This document shows positions 39,590 to 52,566 of a stretch of 64,000 nt of DNA, in pieces. The translations under genes and the position numbers were made by a program. A model generated the notes under the pieces. That model was given only the letters and a program-made list of their open reading frames with translations, made no database searches and was not told where the DNA came from. Positions within the stretch are counted from its first letter, which is position 1. Every line of letters begins with the position of its first letter. The stretch is from Methylobacterium oxalidis. GTDB taxonomy: Bacteria; Pseudomonadota; Alphaproteobacteria; Rhizobiales; Beijerinckiaceae. The stretch is from contig NZ_BJZU01000003.1 of assembly GCF_007992195.1 (NCBI RefSeq), positions 62,001 to 126,000 of the forward strand. Direction: 5' to 3'.

Positions 39590-39910
39590 TCAGCCCTGCC
39601 GCGCCGGGGTGGTGACGCTGAGCCCGTCGAGCTCGGGGGTGATGCGGATCTGGCAGCAGAGGCGGGAGGTGTCGCGCACGTCGCTCGCGAAATCGAGCAT
39701 GTCGCGTTCCATGTCCTCGGCGGTGCCGACCACCTCCGCCCAGGGCTCGTTCACGTAGACGTGGCAGGTCGCGCAGGCGCAGGCACCGCCGCACTCGGCG
39801 TCGATGCCCGGAACGTTGTTTCGCAGTGCCGTCTCCATCACGGTGGCGCCGACGCTGCCCTCGACCGTTCGGGCCGTGCCGGCATGGTCGACGTAGGTGA
39901 TCTTCGGCAT
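39590..39910 (-). CDS. Adrenodoxin-type [2Fe-2S] ferredoxin
   Basis: A 106-residue electron carrier. The cluster cysteines follow the adrenodoxin pattern: Cys40-x5-Cys46-x2-Cys49 in ECGGACACATCHVYV, and the fourth in LCCQI (Cys86). Length and sequence match ferredoxin VI of Rhodobacter capsulatus. Such proteins serve cytochromes P450, ISC iron-sulfur assembly or other oxidases; no partner reductase is adjacent. The ATG follows GGAG six bases upstream. It converges with the VWA gene, 25 bp apart. Confidence 0.93.
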   Translation of the reverse strand: MPKITYVDHAGTARTVEGSVGATVMETALRNNVPGIDAECGGACACATCHVYVNEPWAEVVGTAEDMERDMLDFASDVRDTSRLCCQIRITPELDGLSVTTPARQG

Positions 39911-40086: not shown

Positions 40087-40425
40087 TCACCCGCGCCGGG
40101 CGCCCTCGATCTCCGCGAGCGCCGCGGCCACCGCGGCCGCGAGCGCGGCGAGGTCGGCGGGCTCGACCGGACCGCCGCGCCGCAGCCCGTTCTCGATCCG
40201 GGACGCGGCCTCCGCCACCGCCCCCGCGCCGACCCCGAGGGCCGAGCCCTTGAGGGTGTGCGCCGCGTCGGCGCGCTCCGCGGGCGAGGCCACAACATCC
40301 CTGATGCGGGGGGACAGGCTTCGGCACTGCCCCGCGAACAGGTCGAGCAACTCGTCGGCGAGGGCCCCGTCGCCGAAGGTCTGGGCGTCTAGATGGACGC
40401 GATCGATGGCGGATCCGTGCTGCAC
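40087..40425 (-). CDS. Hpt (histidine phosphotransfer) domain protein
   Basis: A ~112-residue single-domain phosphotransfer protein. The helical bundle carries the phosphorylatable His in AHTLKGSALGVGA; surrounding helices are Ala/Glu-rich (ADELLDLFAGQCRSL, GAVAEAASRIENGL). It would shuttle a phosphate between a hybrid kinase and response regulators, but none is encoded next to it. I place the start at GTG 40425; an upstream TTG at 40473 would add 16 residues. It lies on the opposite strand from the giant gene that starts 260 bp further. Confidence 0.78.
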   Translation of the reverse strand: MQHGSAIDRVHLDAQTFGDGALADELLDLFAGQCRSLSPRIRDVVASPAERADAAHTLKGSALGVGAGAVAEAASRIENGLRRGGPVEPADLAALAAAVAAALAEIEGARRG

Positions 40426-40684
40426 CGTACCGGCGGCTCCTGCTATCCACAGGCGCGCCCGTGGCGGTCTCAACCGTTTAAGCCCTGTGGCGACATGGGA
40501 TAAAGCGGTCTCGGCGGAGCCGCCCGTCGCTTGGTAACCATTTCGTTAAGGTTTTTTCGAGCGGTTCCCCGGCTCGGGTATCCCGGCCCGCCGCCGAGGT
40601 CTAAACTTCCTTGGTAAACGGGAATTTCTGTCTCCGCTTCCGGACGCGGCCGGTTGCGCGGGACTGCGCGTGGCGAGGCGTTGC

Positions 40685-43600
40685 ATGGCGACCGAGAAGA
40701 AGCTGAAGGACCCGGCCGAGGCGGCCCTGTCTGCGATCGAGCAGGCGCTCAACCTCGACCTCCTGACGCCCGGTGCCGAGAAGCGGACGGAGCCGCGCCT
40801 GCCCGATGTCGGCGACACCGATCCTCTCGACGAGCCGAACGGCCGCCAGGCCCCGCCCCGCCTCAGCTTCGACGAGCCCCTCGCCTCGGACGTGCCGCCG
40901 CCGGACCGCAACCGGCCGCACCGCGAGGGCGGCCTGCTCCCGCCGGACCGCTCCCTCGTGGCCAACGACGACCGCCGCAACATCGGCATCCTGCAGCAGA
41001 CGCTGCGGGTGCGCCCCTCGCGCAAGCCCTACCTGATCGCCGCCGCCGCCGCCTTCCTGTGGCTCAACAGCCTCGTCCTTCTGGCCTGGAGCCAGTCGGG
41101 CGGCGACCTCAAGGGCTTCCTGGTGGGGCTCACGGCGCTGCAGGCGACGGTGGGCGCGGCCGCCGTGCTCGGGCCGATCCTGCTCTTCCTCATCACGGCG
41201 ATGCTGGCCGTGCGCGCGCAGGAGATGCGCCTCGTTGCCCGCGCGGTCGGCGAGGTGGCGGTGCGGCTCGCGGAGCCGGAGAGCTTCTCCACCGACGCGG
41301 TGCTGACCATGTCGCAGACCGTGCGCCGCGAGGTGGCGGCGGTGGGCGACGGCGTCGAGCGGGCGCTCGCCCGCGCGGGCGAGCTCGAGACCCTGGTGCG
41401 CGGCGAGATCGCCACGCTGGAGCGCGCCTACTCGGACAACGAGATCCGCATCCGCTCGCTCGTGGACGAGCTCGTCGCCCAGCGCGAGTCGATCGTCGCC
41501 AACGCCGAGCGCGTGCGCGGCGCCATCACGGGCACGCACCAGAGCCTCAGCCAGGAACTGGAGGGCGCCGCCGAGCGCATCGTCACCGCGATGACGGGCG
41601 CGGGCGAGCGCGTCACCAGCGCCCTCGATGCCCGTGGCGAGGCGATCACCAGCGCGCTCGGCAACCGCGGCGACGCGATCACCACCGCGCTCGGCGATGC
41701 GGGCGACCGCGTCGTGGAGGTGATGTCCGGCCGCGGCGACGACCTGATCCAGCGCCTCGTCAGCACCAGCGAGGGTGTCCGCACCAGCCTCAACGAGGTC
41801 GGCAACAGCCTGACGGAGTCGCTGGAGCGGCGCGCCGACGAGGTGACGCGCGCCTTCGAGCGCACGGGCGGCCTCCTGACGACGACGCTCGCCGACAATG
41901 CCGGCCAGGTGGCCCGCACCCTCGCGGAGACCGGCAGCGGCGTCATCGAGGCGCTCGACCGCCAGGGCGGCGCGGTCCGCGAGAGCTTCGAGCGCTCGGC
42001 GAAGGGACTGGAGGACGCCTTCCTGTCGCGCGGGAGCGAGCTGACGGAGCGTTTCTCCAACACCGGCGGTGAGATCACCGCTCGCTTCGCCGAGATCGGC
42101 GAGGGTCTGCGCGCGCATTTCGCGGCGACCGGCAGTGCCCTCACGGACGACCTCGCGAGCCGCGGCGCGGGCCTGCGCGCCGAGATCGAGGCGGCGGGCG
42201 CCGGTGTCTCCGACATGATTGAGGCCCGCGGCCGCGAGACCCAGGCCGGGCTGGCGCTCGCCGCGAGCGGGATCGTGGAGAGCTTCTCGAACCGGGCCAC
42301 GGGCCTGCGCGACGACCTCGTCGGTTCCGTCGAGCGCCTCGCCGAGACGATGGACAATCGCGGCGGCGCGCTCGCCGGGCGCATCGAGGCGGTGGCGGAC
42401 CGCCTGCACGAGACGATCACGGTGCACGGCGCCACCCTCGAGACCAGCCTGAACGCCGCGGGCGAGCAGGTGGGCGGCCTCGTCGCCGCGCGGACAGGGG
42501 CTGCCACGCAGGCCCTGGAGGGTGCCTTCGCGGCGCTCAGCGCGACCTTCGAGTCGAATGCCGACGCGGCGCTCGGCACGCTGCGCGCCACCGTCGACGG
42601 CCTGACGGCCGATCTCGGCGGCCGCACCCAGGAGGCCGCGGACACGATCCGCCGCAGCGCGGAGGAGACCACGGTCGCGCTCGGCGCCAGCACGGCGGAA
42701 GCCGCCCAGGCGCTGCGGCGCTCGGCGGCCGGGGCGACCGGCGAGCTCGAGGCCCGCACGGTCGAGGCGGTGCAGATCTTCGAGAGCCGGCTCGCGGCGA
42801 CCGCCGAGGCGCTGGCCGGGCGTACCGAGGAGGCTGCCGCGCACCTGCGCCGCGTCTCCGAGGAGGCGAGCGGCGAGGCTTCCGAGCGCGCGGCCGCGCT
42901 CGTGGCCCGCTTCACCGAGGCGACGGACGCGCTCCGCGCCGCCTCCGAGAGCGGCACCAGCGCCCTGGAAACCCGCACCGTCGCCCTGCTCGCCGATTTC
43001 CGCACGCAGGCCGAGGGCCTGCACGGCGAGATGGGCGGCCGGGTCGAGGCGTCACTGGAGGCCCTGCGCCGGACGCTCGACGAGCTTCAGACCGCGCTCG
43101 CGCAGCGCGCCGAGGAGGCCACGGGCACGATCGCCCGCGCGGCGGAAGCGCTCGGCACCGATCTCACCATCCGCATCGGCGACGTCGAGAGCGCCTTCGG
43201 CACGCACAGCCGCGGCATGACCGACCTGATCAGCCAGCACGCGGAGGAGGCCCACACCCGCCTCGCCACGACCGGGCGCGACATCGTGCTGGCGGTGGCG
43301 AGCCAGGGCGCGCGCGTGGCGGACGCCCTCAACCAGACCGGGGCGAGCTTCGCCGAGACCGCGGAGAACCGCGCCCGCGCCATGGACGAGGTGCTCGGCA
43401 GCCGGCTCGCTGCCCTGCAGGAGACGATCGCCCGCGGCGACATCCTGGCCGACCGCATCTCCCGCGACACAAACTCCCTCAGCGAGGTGGTCACCGGTCG
43501 CCTGGAGGAGATGGACCGCGTCATCACCGTGCAGGGCAAGGCGGTGGCCGAGAGCATCGCCGAGCGCGCCCGCGAGGCGCGGGAGGTGGTCGAGACGCAT

Positions 43601-46600
43601 CTCGGCGCCCTGGAGGAGCGCACGACCAAGCGCTCGCAGGAGATCGGCGAGACCTTCGCCAACCTCGTCACCCACATCGACGGCCACCTCGGCGCCCGCG
43701 CCACCGCCCTCAACGAGGCGCTCATCGTGCGCACCGGCGAGATGGCGCGCATCATGGCCGAGGGCGGGCGCGACATCGTCCAGTCCCTCGACGCGCGGGC
43801 CGACACCATGGCCGAGGACATCGCGGCCCGCTCGGCGCGGCTCGGCGACGCCCTCGCCGCCCGCACGGCCGAGATCAGCGACCGTCTCGACGGGCAGACG
43901 CGGGACCTCGCGCGCCGCCTCGACGAGGGAGCCGACCGCTTCGACAGCGGCGTCCTGGCGCGGCTCGAGGCGATCGGCACCGCGCTCGAGGAGCGCAGCC
44001 GCCTGATCGACGAGACCTTCGGCGCGCAGGCCTTCGAGGCGATCCGCCTGATCGAGGCGCGCACCCGCGCCGTCGACGAGGAGCTTGCCGGCCGCACCCG
44101 CGAGCTCGTCGACCTGATCCAGACCCGTGCCGGCGAGGCCGACACCCTGCTCGGCGCGCAGGCGGGCGCGATCCGCGCCGCCTTCTCGGAGCGCGCGGAC
44201 GACCTCGGCCGGCTCATCGACGAGCGCACGGCGGCGATGTCGAACGAGCTCGACGAGAAGGGCCGGATCGTGTTCGGCGCCATCGGCGGCCGCGTCACAG
44301 AGCTCGCCCGCCTGTTCGACCGCGGCGGCACCTCCCTCGCCGAGCTCATCGAGAGCCGCGGTGACAGCGTGCTGGCCAAGCTGCGCGAGACCATCGCGGA
44401 GGCCGACCGCATGCTCGGCGACGGCGAGGGCCGCCTCGGCCGCACCCTCGACAGCCGCACCTCCGACATCAGCGCGCTCCTCGACGAGGGCGTGCGGACC
44501 GTCCACGGCCTCCTCGACGCGCGCACCAGCGAGATGCGCAGTCTCCTCGACGAGCACGCCCGCACCCTCAGCGACAGCCTCGACGGGCGCCTCGGCCCGT
44601 TGCACGACGCCCTCGACGAGCGCGGCCGGACCCTCGTCCAGACCATCGAGTCGACGCTCGGCCATGCCGCCGGCGCGCTGGCGGACCGCACGCAGCATCT
44701 CGGCGGCCTGTTCGACGAGCGCCTGCGCGACCTCGACGCGGTGGTGGAAGGGCGCGGCCTGCAGCTCGCCGAGACGGTCGATGCCCGCACGCAGGGGCTG
44801 CGCACCCTGTTCGACGAGGTGCTCCACGCCCTCGACCGCGTCGTGGAGAGCCGCACCGGCGCCTTCCGCGAGCAGGTCGACGTCCGCGGCCAGGCGCTCG
44901 CCAGCCTCCTGGACGAGCGCCTGCGCGAGCTCGAGGGGATCGTGGACGGCCGCACAACCGCCTTCTCGGAGCAGGTCGACGCCCGCAGCCAGGCGCTGAC
45001 TGCCCTGTTCGACGAGCGGCTGCGCGAGCTCGACGGTCTGGTCGAGGGCCGCACCGCGGCGCTCGCCCGCACCATCGAGTCGCAGGGCAGTGCCCTCACC
45101 CAGGCGGTGGATTCCCGCAGCGAGGCTTTCACCAGCCGCATCGACACCCGGATGAAGACGTTCGCGACGCTCGTCGCCTCCCGCGGCGACGCCCTCGCGA
45201 CCGCTTTCGACGACCGCCACGACGCCTTCGCGGCCCTGGTCGAGGAGCGGATCGTCGCGATGGCCGCGGCCCTCGACGAGCGGGCCCGCAACCACGCGGC
45301 CCTGGCCGAGGCCCACACCACGGCCCTGGGCGCCGCGCTCGACCAGCGCAACGACGCGGTCGCGGCGCTCATCGACGCGCGCAACCGCCAGATGTCGGAG
45401 GGCTTCGAGCGCCGCGCGACGGCACTCGGCGCCCTGGTGGATTCCCGCGGCGAGGCCCTGTCGCTCCGCCTCGCCGAGAGCGCCGAGCGGATCGTCCGCG
45501 CGATCGAGGAGCGCGGCGGCGAGCTCGTGACGCATGTGGACGATCGCGGCCAGGCCGTGGCCGAGACGCTCGGCAGCAACGTCGAGCGCCTGCGCGCCGT
45601 CATCGACGGCCCGGTCCTTCATCTGGCCGACGCGCTGGCCGAGCGCAGCGACGCGATCGAGCGCGCGCTCGCCGAGACCGGAACGCCGCTGGTCGAGGCC
45701 CTGCGGGCACGCACCGAGGAGCTGGTCGCGCAGTCGAGCGAGTCGGCCCGGCTTCTGCGCGCCGCGATCGAGGACGGGGCCGCCCGCACCGTCACCGGGC
45801 TCTCCGAGACGAACGATCGCCTGCGCCGCGACCTCAACGGCGTCCTCGCCCGCATCGAGCAGGCCAACGACGCGCTCAAGGACCTCGTCGCGGGTGCCGG
45901 CGAGAATCTCGGCGCGATCGAGGGCGGGCTCGCCGGCCGCGTGCAGCAGATCGAGGCGGCCCTCGCCGAGATCGCCAGCGAGACGAGCCGCGCGAGCGAG
46001 GGCGTCTCGGCGCAGGTCGCCGCCCTCCGGGACGTGTCGGAAGGCGCGCTCAAGGAGGCTTCCGCGCTCGCCGCGACCCTCGACAGCCAGGGCCGGACGC
46101 TGGCGGAGCGGGCGGGCGCGCATGTCCGCACGCTCACCGAGGCGGCCGGCACGCTGGAGACCGTCGAGGGCCGGCTCGCCGAGACCCTGTCGGGCCGCGA
46201 GGGTGCGGTGACGGCGGCGCTCGCCGCCATCGAGGGCCGCTCGTCGGACCTCGAGGCGCAGACGGCCCGCTTCGGCCAGATGATCGAGGAGACCCTGCGC
46301 GCCGCCGAGGAGCGCGCCCGCAGCGTCGGCGCCAACCTCTCGCAGGCCGCCCAGCAGGCGGGCGCCACCGTGACCGGCGAGTTCGAGCGGCTGCGCACGG
46401 GCGCCGGCACCGAGAGCGAGCGCACCGCGCAGGCCGTCCGTTCCGCGATCGAGGCCGCCTCGCAGCAGATGCGGGCCGTTTTCGAGGAGTCGCAGGCCCG
46501 CTTCGGGGAAACCGTCGCCAGCATGCGGGAGATGGCCACGACCATCCGCTCCGAGCTGGAGGCCACCCGCGGCGACCTGCAGCGGGGCGTGCTGGAGATC

Positions 46601-47401
46601 CCGCGCGAGACGCAGGACGCGACGAGCGAGATGCGCCGCGTCGTCTCCGATCAGATCAAGGCCCTCAACGAGCTGTCCGCCCTGGTCTCCCGCTCGAACC
46701 GCTCGGTCGACGTCGTCCAGCCACAGGCCGCCGAGCAGCGGCGGGTGGCCGAGGCGGGCCGCTCGTCGGCCGCGACGGTGCGGGCCTCCGCGCCGCCCGC
46801 CGCGGCGGCACCCGCGAAGGCGCCCGCTCCAGCGGCGAGCGCTCCGCAGCCTGTCGGCTCCCGGCCCGCCACGCCGACCGCCCGCGCCGAGACCCCGGCC
46901 GCGCGGCCGGGCGGGACCCCGACCCGGCCGGCCGCCGCGGGCGACAAGCGCGGCTGGCTCTCCGACCTGCTCACTCGCGCCTCCCTCGACGAGGAGGAGG
47001 CGCCCGCCGCCCGCAACGTCCAGGCCGAGGCGGCCAAGGTGGGCAGCGAGCGCAGCCGCACCACGCTCGAATCGATCTCGACCGACATCGCGCGGATGAT
47101 CGACCACAGGACCGCGGTGGAGCTCTGGGAGCGCTACCGGCGCGGCGAGCCGAACCTGTTCGAGCCCGGCATCTACACGCCGCAGGGCCGGCAGACCTTC
47201 ACCGAGCTGCAGCGGCGCTACCGCGGAGACGCGGATTTCCGCCGGACGGTCGACCGCTACGTCAGCGAGTTCGAGCGCCTTCTCGGGGACGTCTCGAAGA
47301 ACGACCGCGACTCGAAGCGGGCCGACGCCTATCTCACCTCCGAGACCGGCAAGGTCTACACGATGCTCGCGCACGCGAGCGGGCGCTTCGAGGGGGCCTG
47401 A
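40685..47401 (+). CDS. Giant membrane-anchored 11-residue-repeat protein, Growth Pole Ring (GPR/RgsE)-like
   Basis: A 2238-residue protein (ATG at 40685 after GAGG). Residues 1-110 are acidic, Pro-rich and cytoplasmic. Two membrane segments follow (about 115-138 and 150-180). From ~230 to ~2000 the chain is almost purely helical and built of 11-residue repeats of the form R-x-x-x-L-x-x-x-L-D-E; two runs (273-723 and 917-1719) contain 41 and 73 units without a slip. Then come a Pro/Ala linker (~2010-2086) and a C-terminal domain (2087-2238) with WLSDLL, RMIDHRTAVELWERY and KVYTMLAHASGRF. Repeats of this apolipoprotein type, the two N-terminal helices and the size match the Growth Pole Ring protein of Agrobacterium (2115 residues) and RgsE of Sinorhizobium, which organise the growing cell pole. 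Homology is inferred from architecture, not alignment. Confidence 0.75.
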   Translation: MATEKKLKDPAEAALSAIEQALNLDLLTPGAEKRTEPRLPDVGDTDPLDEPNGRQAPPRLSFDEPLASDVPPPDRNRPHREGGLLPPDRSLVANDDRRNIGILQQTLRVRPSRKPYLIAAAAAFLWLNSLVLLAWSQSGGDLKGFLVGLTALQATVGAAAVLGPILLFLITAMLAVRAQEMRLVARAVGEVAVRLAEPESFSTDAVLTMSQTVRREVAAVGDGVERALARAGELETLVRGEIATLERAYSDNEIRIRSLVDELVAQRESIVANAERVRGAITGTHQSLSQELEGAAERIVTAMTGAGERVTSALDARGEAITSALGNRGDAITTALGDAGDRVVEVMSGRGDDLIQRLVSTSEGVRTSLNEVGNSLTESLERRADEVTRAFERTGGLLTTTLADNAGQVARTLAETGSGVIEALDRQGGAVRESFERSAKGLEDAFLSRGSELTERFSNTGGEITARFAEIGEGLRAHFAATGSALTDDLASRGAGLRAEIEAAGAGVSDMIEARGRETQAGLALAASGIVESFSNRATGLRDDLVGSVERLAETMDNRGGALAGRIEAVADRLHETITVHGATLETSLNAAGEQVGGLVAARTGAATQALEGAFAALSATFESNADAALGTLRATVDGLTADLGGRTQEAADTIRRSAEETTVALGASTAEAAQALRRSAAGATGELEARTVEAVQIFESRLAATAEALAGRTEEAAAHLRRVSEEASGEASERAAALVARFTEATDALRAASESGTSALETRTVALLADFRTQAEGLHGEMGGRVEASLEALRRTLDELQTALAQRAEEATGTIARAAEALGTDLTIRIGDVESAFGTHSRGMTDLISQHAEEAHTRLATTGRDIVLAVASQGARVADALNQTGASFAETAENRARAMDEVLGSRLAALQETIARGDILADRISRDTNSLSEVVTGRLEEMDRVITVQGKAVAESIAERAREAREVVETHLGALEERTTKRSQEIGETFANLVTHIDGHLGARATALNEALIVRTGEMARIMAEGGRDIVQSLDARADTMAEDIAARSARLGDALAARTAEISDRLDGQTRDLARRLDEGADRFDSGVLARLEAIGTALEERSRLIDETFGAQAFEAIRLIEARTRAVDEELAGRTRELVDLIQTRAGEADTLLGAQAGAIRAAFSERADDLGRLIDERTAAMSNELDEKGRIVFGAIGGRVTELARLFDRGGTSLAELIESRGDSVLAKLRETIAEADRMLGDGEGRLGRTLDSRTSDISALLDEGVRTVHGLLDARTSEMRSLLDEHARTLSDSLDGRLGPLHDALDERGRTLVQTIESTLGHAAGALADRTQHLGGLFDERLRDLDAVVEGRGLQLAETVDARTQGLRTLFDEVLHALDRVVESRTGAFREQVDVRGQALASLLDERLRELEGIVDGRTTAFSEQVDARSQALTALFDERLRELDGLVEGRTAALARTIESQGSALTQAVDSRSEAFTSRIDTRMKTFATLVASRGDALATAFDDRHDAFAALVEERIVAMAAALDERARNHAALAEAHTTALGAALDQRNDAVAALIDARNRQMSEGFERRATALGALVDSRGEALSLRLAESAERIVRAIEERGGELVTHVDDRGQAVAETLGSNVERLRAVIDGPVLHLADALAERSDAIERALAETGTPLVEALRARTEELVAQSSESARLLRAAIEDGAARTVTGLSETNDRLRRDLNGVLARIEQANDALKDLVAGAGENLGAIEGGLAGRVQQIEAALAEIASETSRASEGVSAQVAALRDVSEGALKEASALAATLDSQGRTLAERAGAHVRTLTEAAGTLETVEGRLAETLSGREGAVTAALAAIEGRSSDLEAQTARFGQMIEETLRAAEERARSVGANLSQAAQQAGATVTGEFERLRTGAGTESERTAQAVRSAIEAASQQMRAVFEESQARFGETVASMREMATTIRSELEATRGDLQRGVLEIPRETQDATSEMRRVVSDQIKALNELSALVSRSNRSVDVVQPQAAEQRRVAEAGRSSAATVRASAPPAAAAPAKAPAPAASAPQPVGSRPATPTARAETPAARPGGTPTRPAAAGDKRGWLSDLLTRASLDEEEAPAARNVQAEAAKVGSERSRTTLESISTDIARMIDHRTAVELWERYRRGEPNLFEPGIYTPQGRQTFTELQRRYRGDADFRRTVDRYVSEFERLLGDVSKNDRDSKRADAYLTSETGKVYTMLAHASGRFEGA
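41501..42853 (+). repeat. First run of 11-residue (33-bp) coding repeats, 41 units
   Basis: Residues 273-723 of the giant protein parse as 41 consecutive 11-mers in one register, such as RGEAITSALGN, RGDAITTALGD and TGSGVIEALDR. Positions 5 and 9 are nearly always hydrophobic; position 1 is often Arg, Thr or Ser and position 2 often Gly or Ala. Divergence between units is high, so the DNA is only weakly repetitive. Confidence 0.9.
43433..45841 (+). repeat. Second run of 11-residue (33-bp) coding repeats, 73 units
   Basis: Residues 917-1719 parse as 73 consecutive 11-mers in one register. Position 1 is Arg in most units, positions 5 and 9 hydrophobic, position 10 usually Asp, Glu or Ala: RTSEMRSLLDE, RLGPLHDALDE, RSQALTALFDE. 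The register slips by one residue just before this run (RLAALQETIA is a 10-mer). Confidence 0.9.
44870..45067 (+). repeat. Recent 99-bp in-frame duplication inside the giant gene
   Basis: Two adjacent 33-residue blocks, beginning EQVDVRGQAL (44870) and EQVDARSQAL (44969), share 22 of 33 residues, well above neighbouring units. Each block equals three 11-mers, suggesting expansion of the repeat array in 99-bp steps. Confidence 0.75.
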
Positions 47402-48040: not shown

Positions 48041-49159
48041 TCAGGAGAACAGCCGGAGCTTCGCCTCGATGCTCAGCGCGTCTATGTCGTCGAAGGCGAA
48101 CACGTCCTCGGCATCCGGCTCGGCCGACGACGGTGCGTGCGCGGGCGCCGCCGCGACGAGGGCGAGCGGGGGCCGCAGGTCGAACTGCGGCTCGGCCTCC
48201 GGACCCTCGTCCGCGTCCGTGTTCTCCTGAAGGTCGGTGCTCTCCCGAAGGACCGAGCCCGCCTGAAGGTCCGCTAAAGCCTGGACGAGCGCGGGCTCGG
48301 CGGCCTCGCTCTCGGCCGGCCCGAACTCGAGGTCGGTGGCGGAGCCGTCGCGGTCCCAGCCCTCGCCGACGGGCGCGGCCGGCTCCTCGGAAGGCAGGAA
48401 GGCGAGATCCTCGTGGAGCGGGATCGCCGCGGGAACCGGGGCGCGCTGAGCCTCGACCGGGTCGGCACCCGCCATGTCGATGAAGCGGTCAACGTCGCTC
48501 TGGCAGAGATCGACCGCCGCGGACTCGATGGCCGGGCGGTGGCCCTGCGCGCCCGGAGCCGGCGGGATCTCCAGGCCGTCGTCGCCCCAGATCCCGATCA
48601 TCGCGATCAGGCGCTCCTCCAGGTAGCGTAGCGTGTGGACGATGCGGCTGGTGCGCTGGGCGGTCAGGTCCTGGAACGAGCAGGCCGTGTAGATCTGCGT
48701 CGCGCGGCGATCGAGCTCGTCGCAGATCGCGGCGTCCGCACCGCGCTCGCGCAGGGTCCAAGCCGCTTCCTGCACCTCCTCGGCGGCGCCGAGGATGTCC
48801 GAGGTGGCGCGCTCCGTCGCGCGCACGATCGCGTCGAGCGCTTCCGAGGCGACGCTGAGGTGGGTCTGGTCCTGGTCGGGAGCGCTGATCGCGGCGATCT
48901 CGGCCTTGGTCCGGGCGATGGCGCTCGCCATCTCCATCAGGTCGCCACGCAGGCGCCCTACCCCGTCGAGGCCGCGCTCGCCCGTGACCGCGCTCTCCAG
49001 CCGGCCGATCGCGCCGAGCAGCATGTCGGTGTCGGCGCTCCGGTTGCGGCGCGCATACTCGCTGAGGAACCAGCGCCCGCGGGCGCTCTCGCTCATCGTC
49101 GCCTCGATCAGGTCGTACTCGGACGGCTCGATCGTGCTGAGCGATTGGGACCCTGACAT
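48041..49159 (-). CDS. CheZ-like protein phosphatase
   Basis: A 372-residue protein. Its N-terminal 190 residues are helical and contain the CheZ signature ACSFQDLTAQRTSRI; Asp164 and Gln168 occupy the positions of the E. coli CheZ catalytic pair Asp143/Gln147 that dephosphorylates CheY. The C-terminal half is acidic, Pro/Ala-rich and disordered, ending in a short helix (IEAKLRLFS) that could be the CheY-docking peptide. In alphaproteobacteria such proteins are often found apart from chemotaxis clusters, as here. It may act on CheY or on a related receiver. Confidence 0.8.
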   Translation of the reverse strand: MSGSQSLSTIEPSEYDLIEATMSESARGRWFLSEYARRNRSADTDMLLGAIGRLESAVTGERGLDGVGRLRGDLMEMASAIARTKAEIAAISAPDQDQTHLSVASEALDAIVRATERATSDILGAAEEVQEAAWTLRERGADAAICDELDRRATQIYTACSFQDLTAQRTSRIVHTLRYLEERLIAMIGIWGDDGLEIPPAPGAQGHRPAIESAAVDLCQSDVDRFIDMAGADPVEAQRAPVPAAIPLHEDLAFLPSEEPAAPVGEGWDRDGSATDLEFGPAESEAAEPALVQALADLQAGSVLRESTDLQENTDADEGPEAEPQFDLRPPLALVAAAPAHAPSSAEPDAEDVFAFDDIDALSIEAKLRLFS

Positions 49160-49284: not shown

Positions 49285-50463
49285 TTGCCGTTGTCCCATC
49301 CCGCCTCCACCGGCGCCCTGCGCCTGTCGCTCCTCTACGCGGTGGTCTTCGTGGAGATCGGCATCGCGATGCCGTTCCTGCCGCTCTGGCTGGGCGCCCT
49401 CGGTCTCGACGCCTCGGTCATCGGCCTCCTGCTAGCGCTGCCGATCGCCACGCGGATCGTGGCGACGGCGCCCCTGATGAGCCTGATCGACCGCGGCGTG
49501 GCGGCGCGCGCGCTCCTGATCGCCGGCAGCCTCGGCGTCGCCCTCACCTACGGGCTGATGCCGGCGGGCGCCGCCCTCGGCTGGCCGCTCCTCGCCGCGC
49601 TGACCGTGCTCAACGCGGTCGCGGCCGCGCCGCTGGTGCCGAGCATCGACTACCTGACCCTCGCGGCGGTGCGGCGCGAGCCGCGCCTCGACTACGCGCG
49701 CATCCGCCTCTCCGGCTCGGTGGCGTTCCTGGCGGCCAACATCCTCGGGGGCGCGCTCCTCGGGGCTCTGGGCGAGGCGGTCGCGGTCCCGCTGCTCCTG
49801 ACGGGGCTCGCCCTGGTGGCGAGCCTCGTTGCGCTCGCCAGCCGCACGGTGGCCGCGCCGCCTCCGCCCTCCGAAGCGGCGGGCCCGCGCCCGCGCCTCC
49901 CGGCCTGTCTCTGGCTCGCCATCGCGGCGGCGGCGGCGATCCAGGCGAGCCACGCGGCGATCTACGGCTTCGCGAGCCTGCACTGGACGGCGCACGGCAT
50001 CGCGACCGCCTGGGTCGGTACGCTCTGGGCGATCGGCGTCGGCGCCGAGATCGTGCTCTTCTCCGGCATCGGCTTCCTGCCTCCGTCCTGGCGAACGCCC
50101 TTCCGCCTCCTGGCGATGGGCGGCGTGGCGGCCCTCCTGCGCGCGGTCGGCATGACGTTCCTCGGGACCGAGCTGCCGGCCGTGGTCGCGCTCCAGTGCC
50201 TGCACGGTTTCACCTTCGGCGCGACCCAGCTCGGCGCCATGGCGGCCGTCTCCGCCTTCGCCCCGGACGGGGCGCGGGGCCGGGCGCAGGGGACGCTGAG
50301 CGCCGTGAATGCCCTCGCGTCGGCCTGCGCGACGCTGCTCAGCGGCCTCGCCTATCGCGAGGGCGGCGCCCTCGTCTTCGCGCTGATGGCCCCGCTCGCG
50401 CTCGTCGGCCTCGGGCTGGCGGCCGCCGCGGCACGGGCCGCGGGAGGTGCGCCGCGGTCCTGA
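49285..50463 (+). CDS. MFS transporter, HcaT/PPP-like
   Basis: A 392-residue major-facilitator protein with about 12 membrane helices. The first helix and loop (LLYAVVFVEIGIAMPFLPLWLGALGL) and FTFGATQLGAMAAVSAFAPDGARGRAQ near the end resemble the HcaT (3-phenylpropionate permease) / LacY-like branch. The substrate cannot be assigned. The first possible start is TTG at 49285, with no good ribosome site; no in-frame ATG exists before the first helix. It precedes the mla operon by 142 bp. Confidence 0.82.
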   Translation: MPLSHPASTGALRLSLLYAVVFVEIGIAMPFLPLWLGALGLDASVIGLLLALPIATRIVATAPLMSLIDRGVAARALLIAGSLGVALTYGLMPAGAALGWPLLAALTVLNAVAAAPLVPSIDYLTLAAVRREPRLDYARIRLSGSVAFLAANILGGALLGALGEAVAVPLLLTGLALVASLVALASRTVAAPPPPSEAAGPRPRLPACLWLAIAAAAAIQASHAAIYGFASLHWTAHGIATAWVGTLWAIGVGAEIVLFSGIGFLPPSWRTPFRLLAMGGVAALLRAVGMTFLGTELPAVVALQCLHGFTFGATQLGAMAAVSAFAPDGARGRAQGTLSAVNALASACATLLSGLAYREGGALVFALMAPLALVGLGLAAAAARAAGGAPRS

Positions 50464-50605
50464 GCCCGCCTGGCCGCGTGCCCCTCGGCACGCCGCGGAG
50501 CTGGGCGGTTTGGCACGGCCGGCCCGGAGACGGTATGGTAACCATTCATTCAGCATGAAGACGGGGAACGGGAGACGCGGGTTCGTGCGGACCGAGGACG
50601 GCACG

Positions 50606-51733
50606 ATGCTGAGCGAGGCGGCCACCGCGACCCTGGATCCGGGCAGCGGGCGCGTCGCGCTGGCCGGACGCTGGACGGCCGACCAGGCGCCCTCCGTCGA
50701 GGCCGCCGCGGCCCGCATCGCCGCCGAGGCGGCCGGGCGGCCGGTGCTGGTCGATCTCGGCCGAATCGAGCGTCTCGACACGCTCGGCGCCTGGGTGCTG
50801 GAGCGGACCAGGGGCGAGATCGAGGCCGCGGGCGGGCGGCTCGCCTATGCCGGCGCGGCGCCCGAGCACCGCATTCTTCTCGGCGAGATGGGCCTGCGCC
50901 AACCGGAGGCACCAGCCGCACCGCGGCGCGGCCGCCTCTACGGCTTCCTCGACGATCTCGGCCGCTATGTGGTGGCGGCCAAGACCGACTTCGTGACGGG
51001 CCTTGCCTTCCTGGGCGAGGTCGTGGTCGCCTGCATGCGGGTCGCCGCCCGCCCGAGCACGTTCCGGGGCACCGCCTTCGTCAACCAGATCGAGCAGGTC
51101 GCCTTCCGCGGCGTCCCGATCATCGTCCTGATCTCGTTCCTGGTCGGCGGAATCGTCGCCCAGCAGGGCATCTTCCAGCTCCAGCGCTTCGGTGCGCAGA
51201 CCTTCGTCGTCAACCTGATCGGTCTCCTGATCCTGCGCGAGCTCGGCGTGCTTCTCACCTCGATCATGGTGGCGGGCCGCTCAGGGTCCGCCTTCACGGC
51301 CGAGATCGGCTCGATGCGGATGCGCGAGGAGGTCGACGCGCTGCGCGTCATGGGCCTCGACCCGATCGAGATCCTGATCGTCCCGCGCATCCTCGCCCTC
51401 GTCGTCGGGTTGCCGATGCTGGCGCTGATCGCCTCGCTGGCCGCGCTCGCGGGCGGCGGGCTCACCGCGATGCTCTACGGCGGCATGACGGTCGAGGGCT
51501 TCCTCTCCCGCCTTCAGGCGGCGATCTCGCTCCACCACGTCGCCGTGGGGCTGATCAAGGCGCCGTTCATGGCGCTGATCATCGGCATCATCGCGACGAT
51601 CGAGGGGTTCGAGGTGGAGGGCTCCGCCGAGTCGCTGGGCCGCCACGTCACCGCCTCAGTCGTCAAGTCAATCTTCATGGTCATCGTGCTTGATGGACTC
51701 TTCGCGGTGTTCTTCGCGGCTATCGATTTCTAA
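50606..51733 (+). CDS. mlaE: Mla-type lipid ABC transporter permease with N-terminal STAS domain (MlaB-MlaE fusion)
   Basis: A 375-residue inner-membrane permease. Residues ~10-98 are a STAS/MlaB-like domain (VLVDLGRIERLDTLGAWVLE); residues from ~110 are the MlaE permease, with VNQIEQVAFRGVPIIVLISF, QRFGAQTFVVNLIGLLILRELGVLLTSIMVAGRSG and MRMREEVDALRVMG as family hallmarks. In E. coli these are separate subunits. The ATG at 50606 follows AGGA. It is the first gene of a four-gene operon (mlaE, mlaF, mlaD, lipoprotein) for phospholipid traffic across the periplasm. Confidence 0.9.
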   Translation: MLSEAATATLDPGSGRVALAGRWTADQAPSVEAAAARIAAEAAGRPVLVDLGRIERLDTLGAWVLERTRGEIEAAGGRLAYAGAAPEHRILLGEMGLRQPEAPAAPRRGRLYGFLDDLGRYVVAAKTDFVTGLAFLGEVVVACMRVAARPSTFRGTAFVNQIEQVAFRGVPIIVLISFLVGGIVAQQGIFQLQRFGAQTFVVNLIGLLILRELGVLLTSIMVAGRSGSAFTAEIGSMRMREEVDALRVMGLDPIEILIVPRILALVVGLPMLALIASLAALAGGGLTAMLYGGMTVEGFLSRLQAAISLHHVAVGLIKAPFMALIIGIIATIEGFEVEGSAESLGRHVTASVVKSIFMVIVLDGLFAVFFAAIDF

Positions 51734-51738
51734 ACCAC

Positions 51739-52566
51739 GTGTCAGACCTCGCGCGCACCAGCCCTGACCCGACCGGCGACGCGATCATCCGCGTGCGCGA
51801 TCTCGTCGTGGGCTTTCGCGACCGCACGGTGCTGAAGGGCCTCAACCTCGACATCCAGCGCGGCGAGATCCTCGGCTTCGTCGGACCTTCGGGTCAGGGC
51901 AAGTCGGTCCTCACCCGCACCATCCTCGGCCTCGTGCCGAAGCGCTCGGGCACGATCGAGGTGTTCGGCGAGAACGTGGACGGGATGAGCACGGCGCGCC
52001 GCCGGCGCATCGAGCAGCGCTGGGGCGTGCTGTTCCAGCAGGGAGCCCTGTTCTCGGCGCTCACCGTGAAGCAGAACATCCAGATGCCGATGCGCGAGCA
52101 CCTGAACCTGTCCGAGCGCCTGCTCGACGAGTTCGCGCGCCTCAAGATCGAGATGGTGGGCCTGAAGCCGGATGCGGCCGACAAGCTGCCCTCGGAACTC
52201 TCCGGCGGCATGATCAAGCGCGCGGCGCTCGCACGCGCCCTGGCCCTCGACCCCGAGATCCTGTTCCTCGACGAGCCGACCTCCGGCCTCGACCCGATCG
52301 GCGCCGGAGAGTTCGACGAGCTCGTCGCCACCCTGAAGCAGACGCTCGGACTGACCGTCTTCATGGTGACGCACGACCTCGACAGTCTCTACACGGCCTG
52401 CGACCGCATCGCGGCTCTGGGCGACGGCCAGATCATCGCGGAGGGACCGATCGAGTCGATGCTCGCCTCCGACCACCCGTGGTTGCGCTCCTACTTCCAC
52501 GGCAAGCGCGCCCGCTCGATCGTCGTCGGCGAGCCGATCGCGGCGCGGGAGCACGCCCATGTCTGA
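51739..52566 (+). CDS. mlaF: Mla-type lipid ABC transporter ATPase
   Basis: A 275-residue ATPase that powers the MlaE permease. Walker A GPSGQGKS is at 49-56, the signature LSGGMIKRAALARAL and Walker B ILFLDEPTSGLDP are in order, and the H-loop is VTHDLDS. GMIKR after LSGG is characteristic of MlaF. It starts with GTG only five bases after the mlaE stop, so the two are translationally linked. The C-terminal tail is short and polar. Confidence 0.92.
   Translation: MSDLARTSPDPTGDAIIRVRDLVVGFRDRTVLKGLNLDIQRGEILGFVGPSGQGKSVLTRTILGLVPKRSGTIEVFGENVDGMSTARRRRIEQRWGVLFQQGALFSALTVKQNIQMPMREHLNLSERLLDEFARLKIEMVGLKPDAADKLPSELSGGMIKRAALARALALDPEILFLDEPTSGLDPIGAGEFDELVATLKQTLGLTVFMVTHDLDSLYTACDRIAALGDGQIIAEGPIESMLASDHPWLRSYFHGKRARSIVVGEPIAAREHAHV

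Follow-up and report, generated by a model that had tools for sequence, protein, structure and literature searches.

A giant hendecad-repeat protein of Methylobacterium oxalidis as the probable GPR/RgsE of its species and a probable relative of TipN

The giant gene and its product

The 64,000-nucleotide stretch of Methylobacterium oxalidis DNA analyzed here, hereafter the window (RefSeq assembly GCF_007992195.1, contig NZ_BJZU01000003.1, positions 62,001 to 126,000), carries on its plus strand, at 40685..47401, a gene for a very long repeat protein that likely belongs to the type of Agrobacterium GPR (Atu1348) and Sinorhizobium RgsE (SMc00190). The frame is intact from the ATG at 40685 to the stop ending at 47401, with zero internal stops, and encodes 2238 residues, as an earlier sequence-only reading of this DNA had described. 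A GTG located 15 nucleotides upstream of the ATG is a possible alternative start; the protein encoded at a congeneric locus (L040) starts with the same residues as those found at ATG 40685. When the whole protein was compared with its own genome, no match besides the gene itself was found at E ≤ 0.001.

The protein begins with a membrane hairpin, followed by a helical rod, a linker and a conserved C-terminal domain, which is the order of parts that the sequence-only reading had proposed. Hydropathy and an alignment with 20 relatives place the first transmembrane helix at residues ~115-136 (41027..41092) and the second at residues ~152-179 (41138..41221), the latter being hydrophobic from ~144. 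A conserved juxtamembrane segment (41222..41509; RLAEPE...RREVAA.GDGVERALARA.ELE) is apparent in the alignment of relatives and, together with the hairpin, in an HHalign comparison to Caulobacter TipN. At the other end, a Pro/Ala-rich linker (46640..46939, residues ~1986-2085) leads to an all-helical C-terminal domain (46940..47398, residues ~2086-2238), for which no Pfam or NCBIfam family was matched and no solved relative was found by Foldseek at E ≤ 0.001.

The rod itself is built of 11-residue units (hendecads). A hendecad phase model fitted over residues 201-1985 scores 1012, versus 104-148 in 5 of 5 shuffles, and finds position 5 occupied by strong hydrophobic residues in 84% of units and position 9 in 93%, both of them positions singled out before. 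Run 1 (41483..42958, residues 267-758) holds 44.7 units, a shifted-phase run (42959..43429, residues 759-915) 14.3 units and run 2 (43430..45865, residues 916-1727) 73.8 units, after which an irregular helical part with many phase breaks extends to residue 1985 (45866..46639, residues 1728-1985). The previous count of 41 and then 73 repeats needs revision for its first figure, which is nearer 45 with the out-of-phase run of 14 in addition; the arginine reported as near-invariant in the second run proved to be common only, with 47 of the 74 units carrying it at position 1. Run 2 displays a 33-residue super-period reached by 0 of 2000 block permutations, and run 1 a 22-residue super-period reached by 0 of 500. 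A tandem array of 99 bp (33 codons; 3.5 copies, 71% matches) at 44707..45054 is a unit duplication still visible in the DNA. Neither the super-periods nor this array had been picked up earlier.

Correspondence to GPR and RgsE

A scan of contigs for relatives returned at least 542 loci. Of these, the best 80 by resemblance to a query of Agrobacterium type, nearly all of them from Rhizobiaceae, were retained and are referred to below as the named loci. They include Agrobacterium rubi, A. pusense, A. vitis, a metagenome-assembled genome (MAG) labeled 'A. tumefaciens' and Sinorhizobium meliloti 4H41. A full frame was recovered in 79 of the 80. In 78 of 79 the N-terminal region gives E 8e-30 or lower, with 8e-16 in the truncated frame (L081), and the C-terminal domain matches in all 79 full-frame loci (E 1e-47 to 2e-38). 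For the N-terminal and juxtamembrane sequence, identity is 51% over 120 residues with the 'A. tumefaciens' MAG (E 2e-31) and 34% over 306 residues with S. meliloti (E 2e-34); for the C-terminal domain it is 47% (E 4e-44) and 51% (E 2e-46), respectively. The genus at the head of the alignment of 21 C-terminal loci used for further searches (A1) is probably Agrobacterium as well (g116), as judged by a search for telomere resolvase, which we take to mark that genus (2 of 151 genomes over the cut-off).

Gene order points the same way. In the annotated S. meliloti record, a 2Fe-2S gene and an Hpt gene, both on the minus strand, precede a plus-strand giant gene of 2089 residues, an order identical to that of the window. 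RgsE has a published length of 2089 residues (PMC7327166). The S. meliloti gene of this length (L299:2190-8459) is labeled 'kinesin' and lies on a 3.7-Mb record titled plasmid pSymB; since an RgsE-length gene sits on it, this record may be a misfiled chromosome.

The proposal that this gene is the Methylobacterium counterpart of GPR/RgsE had been tied beforehand to a profile comparison of both terminal regions, and both turned out to be similar to the Agrobacterium and Sinorhizobium proteins, with congeners standing for Atu1348. Together with the S. meliloti gene order, the matches at both ends support this assignment. GPR and RgsE share with the protein described here two N-terminal membrane helices, a rod of PF01442 type, a Pro/Ala linker, the conserved C-terminal domain, a size of ~2100 residues and the 2Fe-2S and Hpt neighbors. 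They differ in the fine structure of the rod, as the last run peaks here at 33 residues (autocorrelation 0.55), versus 22 in two Agrobacterium relatives and 11-22 in S. meliloti. The assignment is not new in itself: RgsE homologues have been reported for all families of Rhizobiales (PMC7327166), so that the protein adds one member to a known family, and its architecture across the order has been described (PMC8262873).

Probable relationship to TipN

Caulobacter genomes were sought through the methylase CcrM, which led to one genus of 75 genomes, 73 of which matched. One of them (G832) encodes a CcrM with 100% identity, over 352 residues, to PDB 6pbd ('Modification methylase CcrMI'), which we take to be the Caulobacter protein. 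This genome holds a single A1 match at E ≤ 0.001, in a frame whose first ATG (codon 7) gives a protein of exactly 882 residues (L260:3951-6596). TipN has a published length of 882 residues (PMC13170164), and we therefore call this protein TipN, a name that rests on its length, its architecture and the CcrM of its genome.

Both ends of the two proteins can be aligned. HHalign comparison of the C-termini of 21 loci of the order with 12 Caulobacter-like ones (family f115) gave E 8.7e-10 over 62 columns, with a score of 64.5; the best of 100 column-shuffled decoys reached 22.9, and shuffled, reversed and rod segments all remained at or below that value. The hairpin with the juxtamembrane segment aligned to TipN over 161 columns (E 1.2e-11, score 76.3). 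Because membrane helices inflate HHalign scores, local shuffles that keep hydropathy were used as decoys for this end: 200 of them scored at most 44.6, and 23 segments from three unrelated membrane proteins at most 25.1. Rod segments compared at this end likewise did not exceed 44.6. A bridging family (f226) matches the two sides at both ends (C-termini, E 2.7e-17 and 7.4e-8; N-termini, E 5.1e-12 and 3e-8). AlphaFold2 models of both C-terminal domains (mean pLDDT, the predicted local distance difference test, 77.8 and 82.1) share the arrangement of their last three helices, at 110-133, 138-145 and 147-158 in one and at 112-135, 140-147 and 149-161 in the other.

TipN thus resembles the Methylobacterium protein in its homologous hairpin and C-terminal domain, its acidic helical rod and its single match per genome, and differs from it by a rod about one third as long with a weaker 11-residue period, by the absence of a PF01442 match at E ≤ 1 and by the lack of an Hpt or 2Fe-2S neighbor at the loci examined. 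These comparisons suggest that GPR/RgsE and TipN are probably versions of one old protein whose main difference is the length of the rod.

Alternatively, GPR and TipN could lack common ancestry and have arrived at a hairpin with a rod by convergence, in which case the matches at their ends would be artefacts of composition. The low pairwise identity of the HHalign alignments (23-29%), the modest direct HMMER matches of A1 in the Caulobacter-like family (3e-10 to 7e-4), the scores of up to 44.6 obtained from hydropathy alone and the different gene neighborhoods are all compatible with such convergence, and the two proteins have been called 'analogous' (PMC13170164). Nevertheless, the observed scores exceed those of every decoy at either end, the bridging family connects both sides and the C-terminal helix patterns agree, and we regard convergence as very improbable. 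GPR is said to have 'similarity to' TipN in PMC8546619, which cites Zupan 2019. TipN is called Caulobacter-specific in PMC4460556 and, according to PMC5182065, most alphaproteobacteria do not encode it. In the literature searched, to which Lam 2006, Yeh 2010 and Zupan 2019 did not belong, no report was found of the homology of the terminal domains, of the class-wide distribution or of the Hpt neighbor.

Distribution of the C-terminal domain

Of 199 genomes of the order, 190 have the C-terminal domain (163 residues), 188 of them as a single copy; the nine genomes without a match are spread over six families and include three (G036, G068, G135) that are 99-100% complete. Within the class, A1 matched 138 of 385 genomes, and 133 of these belong to other orders. 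In all 40 other-order loci fetched from these 133 genomes, the domain lies at the extreme C-terminus of a protein of 662-2416 residues, with an N-terminal hairpin in 38 of 40 (hydropathy threshold lowered) and a rod whose 11-residue autocorrelation is 0.11-0.38. One of them (L183, genome G466) encodes an 878-residue homologue, the size of TipN, that keeps the Hpt and 2Fe-2S neighbors and makes a useful bridging lineage. A named homologue outside Rhizobiales, of 774 residues, is found in Sphingomonas parapaucimobilis (L298). A broader alignment with TipN-like rows (A4) gave matches in 93 of the 349 phylum genomes, without exception members of the class; among the matches listed, and going by listing order, this corresponds to 93 of 111 genomes inside the class and to none of 238 beyond it.

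A rodless form of 310-364 residues is encoded by all 11 loci fetched from the 22 matching genomes of another family (f74). It consists of the hairpin, a linker of ~100-126 residues devoid of 11-residue period and the same C-terminal domain, which aligns to that of the present family by HHalign at E 5e-7 (score 47.4, versus at most 17.8 for 50 shuffled decoys). The rodless loci are L280-L288, L296 and L297, and the family has many genera.

This breadth bears on function: with relatives found across the class, the original role may have been something other than the polar growth seen in Rhizobiales. The Methylobacterium protein could then be a GPR homologue by descent acting in this genus as a general spacer of the envelope or nucleoid, and not as a pole organizer; a different role for distant RgsE homologues has been suggested in print (PMC7327166). 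The protein has, however, the same neighbors and both of the conserved ends of RgsE, and TipN is still a new-pole protein (PMC4460556) though Caulobacter is described as elongating along its side wall. A spacer without polar function is thus, in our opinion, quite improbable.

A rod that varies in length and the question of lipid contact

Rod length was taken between two conserved anchors, both of which were found in 84 of 105 proteins. The 84 lengths take 58 distinct values and cluster modulo 11 (chi-square 99.4, nominal p 7e-17, the lengths coming from related and hence non-independent proteins); they also cluster modulo 22, a multiple of 11, and are flat for all other moduli tested from 4 to 21. 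The lengths come for the most part from the named Rhizobiaceae-type loci (75 of 84; the rest of the order supplies 6 and the Methylobacterium family 3), so that steps of 11 residues are demonstrated for the named group only. A change by whole units keeps the narrow hydrophobic stripe of the rod in register.

The regular part of the rod (residues 267-1727, 1461 residues) has a net charge of -79 and contains 6 Lys, 3 Pro and 0 Trp. Its mean hydrophobic moment is 0.35, and strong hydrophobic residues occupy two adjacent positions of the helical wheel only. Such an acidic rod favors a scaffold over a helix lying on lipid; it would form a coiled-coil-like spacer, presumably oligomeric, of ~220 nm at most if one continuous helix rising 0.15 nm per residue is assumed.

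The sequence-only reading had left two fates for the 11-mers, a lipid surface or a coiled coil, and the first of these was weakened by the charge and the low amphipathicity of the rod, without losing all ground. On that reading the rod would be a helix of apolipoprotein or perilipin type, laid along the surface of the membrane or of lipid droplets, with a part in lipid sorting or storage at the growing pole. The Pfam model PF01442 does score 236 bits, versus a cut-off of 90, over 15 stretches, ApoLp-III reaches 45 bits for a cut-off of 36, and phmmer finds weak matches to apoA-IV (E 0.006 at full length, 8e-5 with a 251-residue piece). An 11/3 helix is moreover suited to a surface. PF01442, however, matches at E ≤ 0.001 in 7 of 14 control genomes, indicating that the model responds to the 11-residue period, and 3% of the 18-residue windows of the rod exceed the threshold for lipid binding, versus 15% for a fragment of apoA-IV, a control so low that the test discriminates weakly. 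Human apoA-IV (PDB 3s84, 9hx4) has an amphipathic helical period of 11/22 residues, as here, and the weak sequence match; it differs by its 396 residues, by 3.5% Pro in the fragment compared with 0.2% here and by being less acidic. To our knowledge, apoA-IV has no membrane hairpin and no such C-terminal domain. MlaE and a MlaF-like ABC-ATPase, encoded near the giant gene at 50447-52566 on the plus strand, would fit a lipid role; among the 80 named loci, 46 have a match to MlaE and 60 a match to the ATPase, some ATPase matches being just 29-35% identical. A lipid role has been proposed in print for GPR (PMC8262873). Taken together, these data make contact with lipid possible and a lipid-handling function of the rod unlikely.

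Neighboring genes and promoter region

Upstream of the giant gene and divergent from it lies an Hpt phosphotransfer gene (40087..40473, minus strand; H-x-L-K-G motif; Pfam Hpt 34 bits, cut-off 24.6), separated from it by the intergenic region 40474..40684 and followed by a 2Fe-2S ferredoxin-type gene (39590..39910, minus strand) that is a conserved neighbor in the order. A divergent Hpt gene within 2.5 kb upstream was found at 79 of 79 full-frame named loci, 15 of 20 further loci of the order, 5 of 5 further loci of the Methylobacterium family, 12 of 40 other-order loci and both annotated records from the plasmid collection; none was found within that distance at the 12 Caulobacter-like loci, the 8 of the bridging family or the 11 rodless ones. 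L289, which lies outside these groups, gave an Hpt match, and L295 gave none. In an automatic alignment, some rows of which are possibly misplaced, the phosphate-accepting position carries His in 64 of the 79 named loci, in all 11 rows from the Methylobacterium family, in all 11 additional ones from the order and in 10 of the 12 from other orders. Sphingomonas parapaucimobilis has Leu in place of this His, and its protein is possibly a degenerate Hpt. The conservation of this neighbor hints that the landmark proposed below may be linked to a phosphorelay; no report of a role for it was found in the literature searched.

A full CtrA-type box, TTAA-N7-TTAA in the form we take the motif to have, is present within the 800 bp around the start of the giant gene in 26 of 79 named Rhizobiaceae-type loci (L065-L144), and a search of 1.5 Mb from these loci gave no box at any other place. 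In contrast, the window has none between its Hpt gene and the giant gene, and the box is also missing from 10 of 10 loci of its family. Downstream of the giant gene, a CheZ-like protein of 372 residues, below the Pfam cut-off (26.7 versus 30.7 bits), is encoded at 48041-49159 on the minus strand and adjoins a DUF1489 gene.

A proposed pole landmark and scaffold

We propose, with a probability of about 0.8, that the protein is an inner-membrane pole landmark and scaffold, the GPR/RgsE of this species. The two-helix hairpin would anchor it in the inner membrane, and the acidic rod would project from there into the cytoplasm, serving as a long, coiled-coil-like spacer whose length, judging from the measured Rhizobiaceae-type relatives, could vary by whole 11-residue units with the hydrophobic stripe kept in register. 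The all-helical C-terminal domain would then dock or self-associate at the new pole and recruit the growth machinery, probably via Tol-Pal. The family would span the class, Caulobacter TipN included, its members differing mainly by the length of the rod.

Published work on the relatives is consistent with this scheme. Membrane anchoring and polar foci are described for them in print. RgsE interacts with TolQ in pull-down and two-hybrid assays (PMC7327166), TipN interacts with Tol-Pal (PMC7403779) and requires it for its polar localization (PMC7391070). Overproduction of TipN yields ectopic poles (PMC5347347), and that of GPR or RgsE multiple poles or branches (PMC8262873; PMC7327166), so that a Tol-Pal link and ectopic poles are common to TipN and RgsE.

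Besides the apolipoprotein-model score and the weak amphipathicity test discussed above, several points weigh against this interpretation. Polar localization in M. oxalidis is a prediction by analogy with these relatives. The Agrobacterium comparison was made with congeners of Atu1348 as stand-ins, and TipN was named as explained above. The juxtamembrane segment alone matches TipN weakly (E 0.0016), and hydropathy-keeping decoys reach E 2e-6, so that the N-terminal E-value is overstated even though it stands above the controls. None of the 12 Caulobacter-like loci has an Hpt or a 2Fe-2S neighbor, which makes strict orthology less certain and leaves the claim of homology unaffected. Finally, the length steps come largely from one group of related proteins, and the three measurable rods of the Methylobacterium family leave remainders of 7, 7 and 0, which do not demonstrate whole-unit steps for that family.

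Concluding remarks

Beyond the single protein, we lean somewhat toward a broader view in which GPR/RgsE, TipN and the ~340-residue rodless form make up one alphaproteobacterial family of new-pole landmarks. A membrane hairpin and a C-terminal docking domain would be connected by a spacer of variable length, from no rod to >2000 residues, changing by whole 11-residue units at least in the Rhizobiaceae-type group; the polar growth of Rhizobiales would have arisen by enlargement of a landmark already present, and the pairing with Hpt in several orders may reflect a phosphorelay. The link to TipN, the variable rod, the C-terminal domain without a model and the Hpt neighbor are the parts worth following, the remainder being mostly explained already; the last two, a domain that lacks a Pfam or NCBIfam model and a conserved neighboring gene, offer defined targets.

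If this view is true, it would bear on the origin of one-pole growth in Rhizobiales, as GPR/RgsE would be a much enlarged TipN. Results obtained with TipN, such as its dependence on Tol-Pal, its contact with ParA and its ectopic poles, would become transferable to GPR, and those obtained with GPR, such as its ring and the targeting of peptidoglycan, would reciprocally become transferable to TipN.

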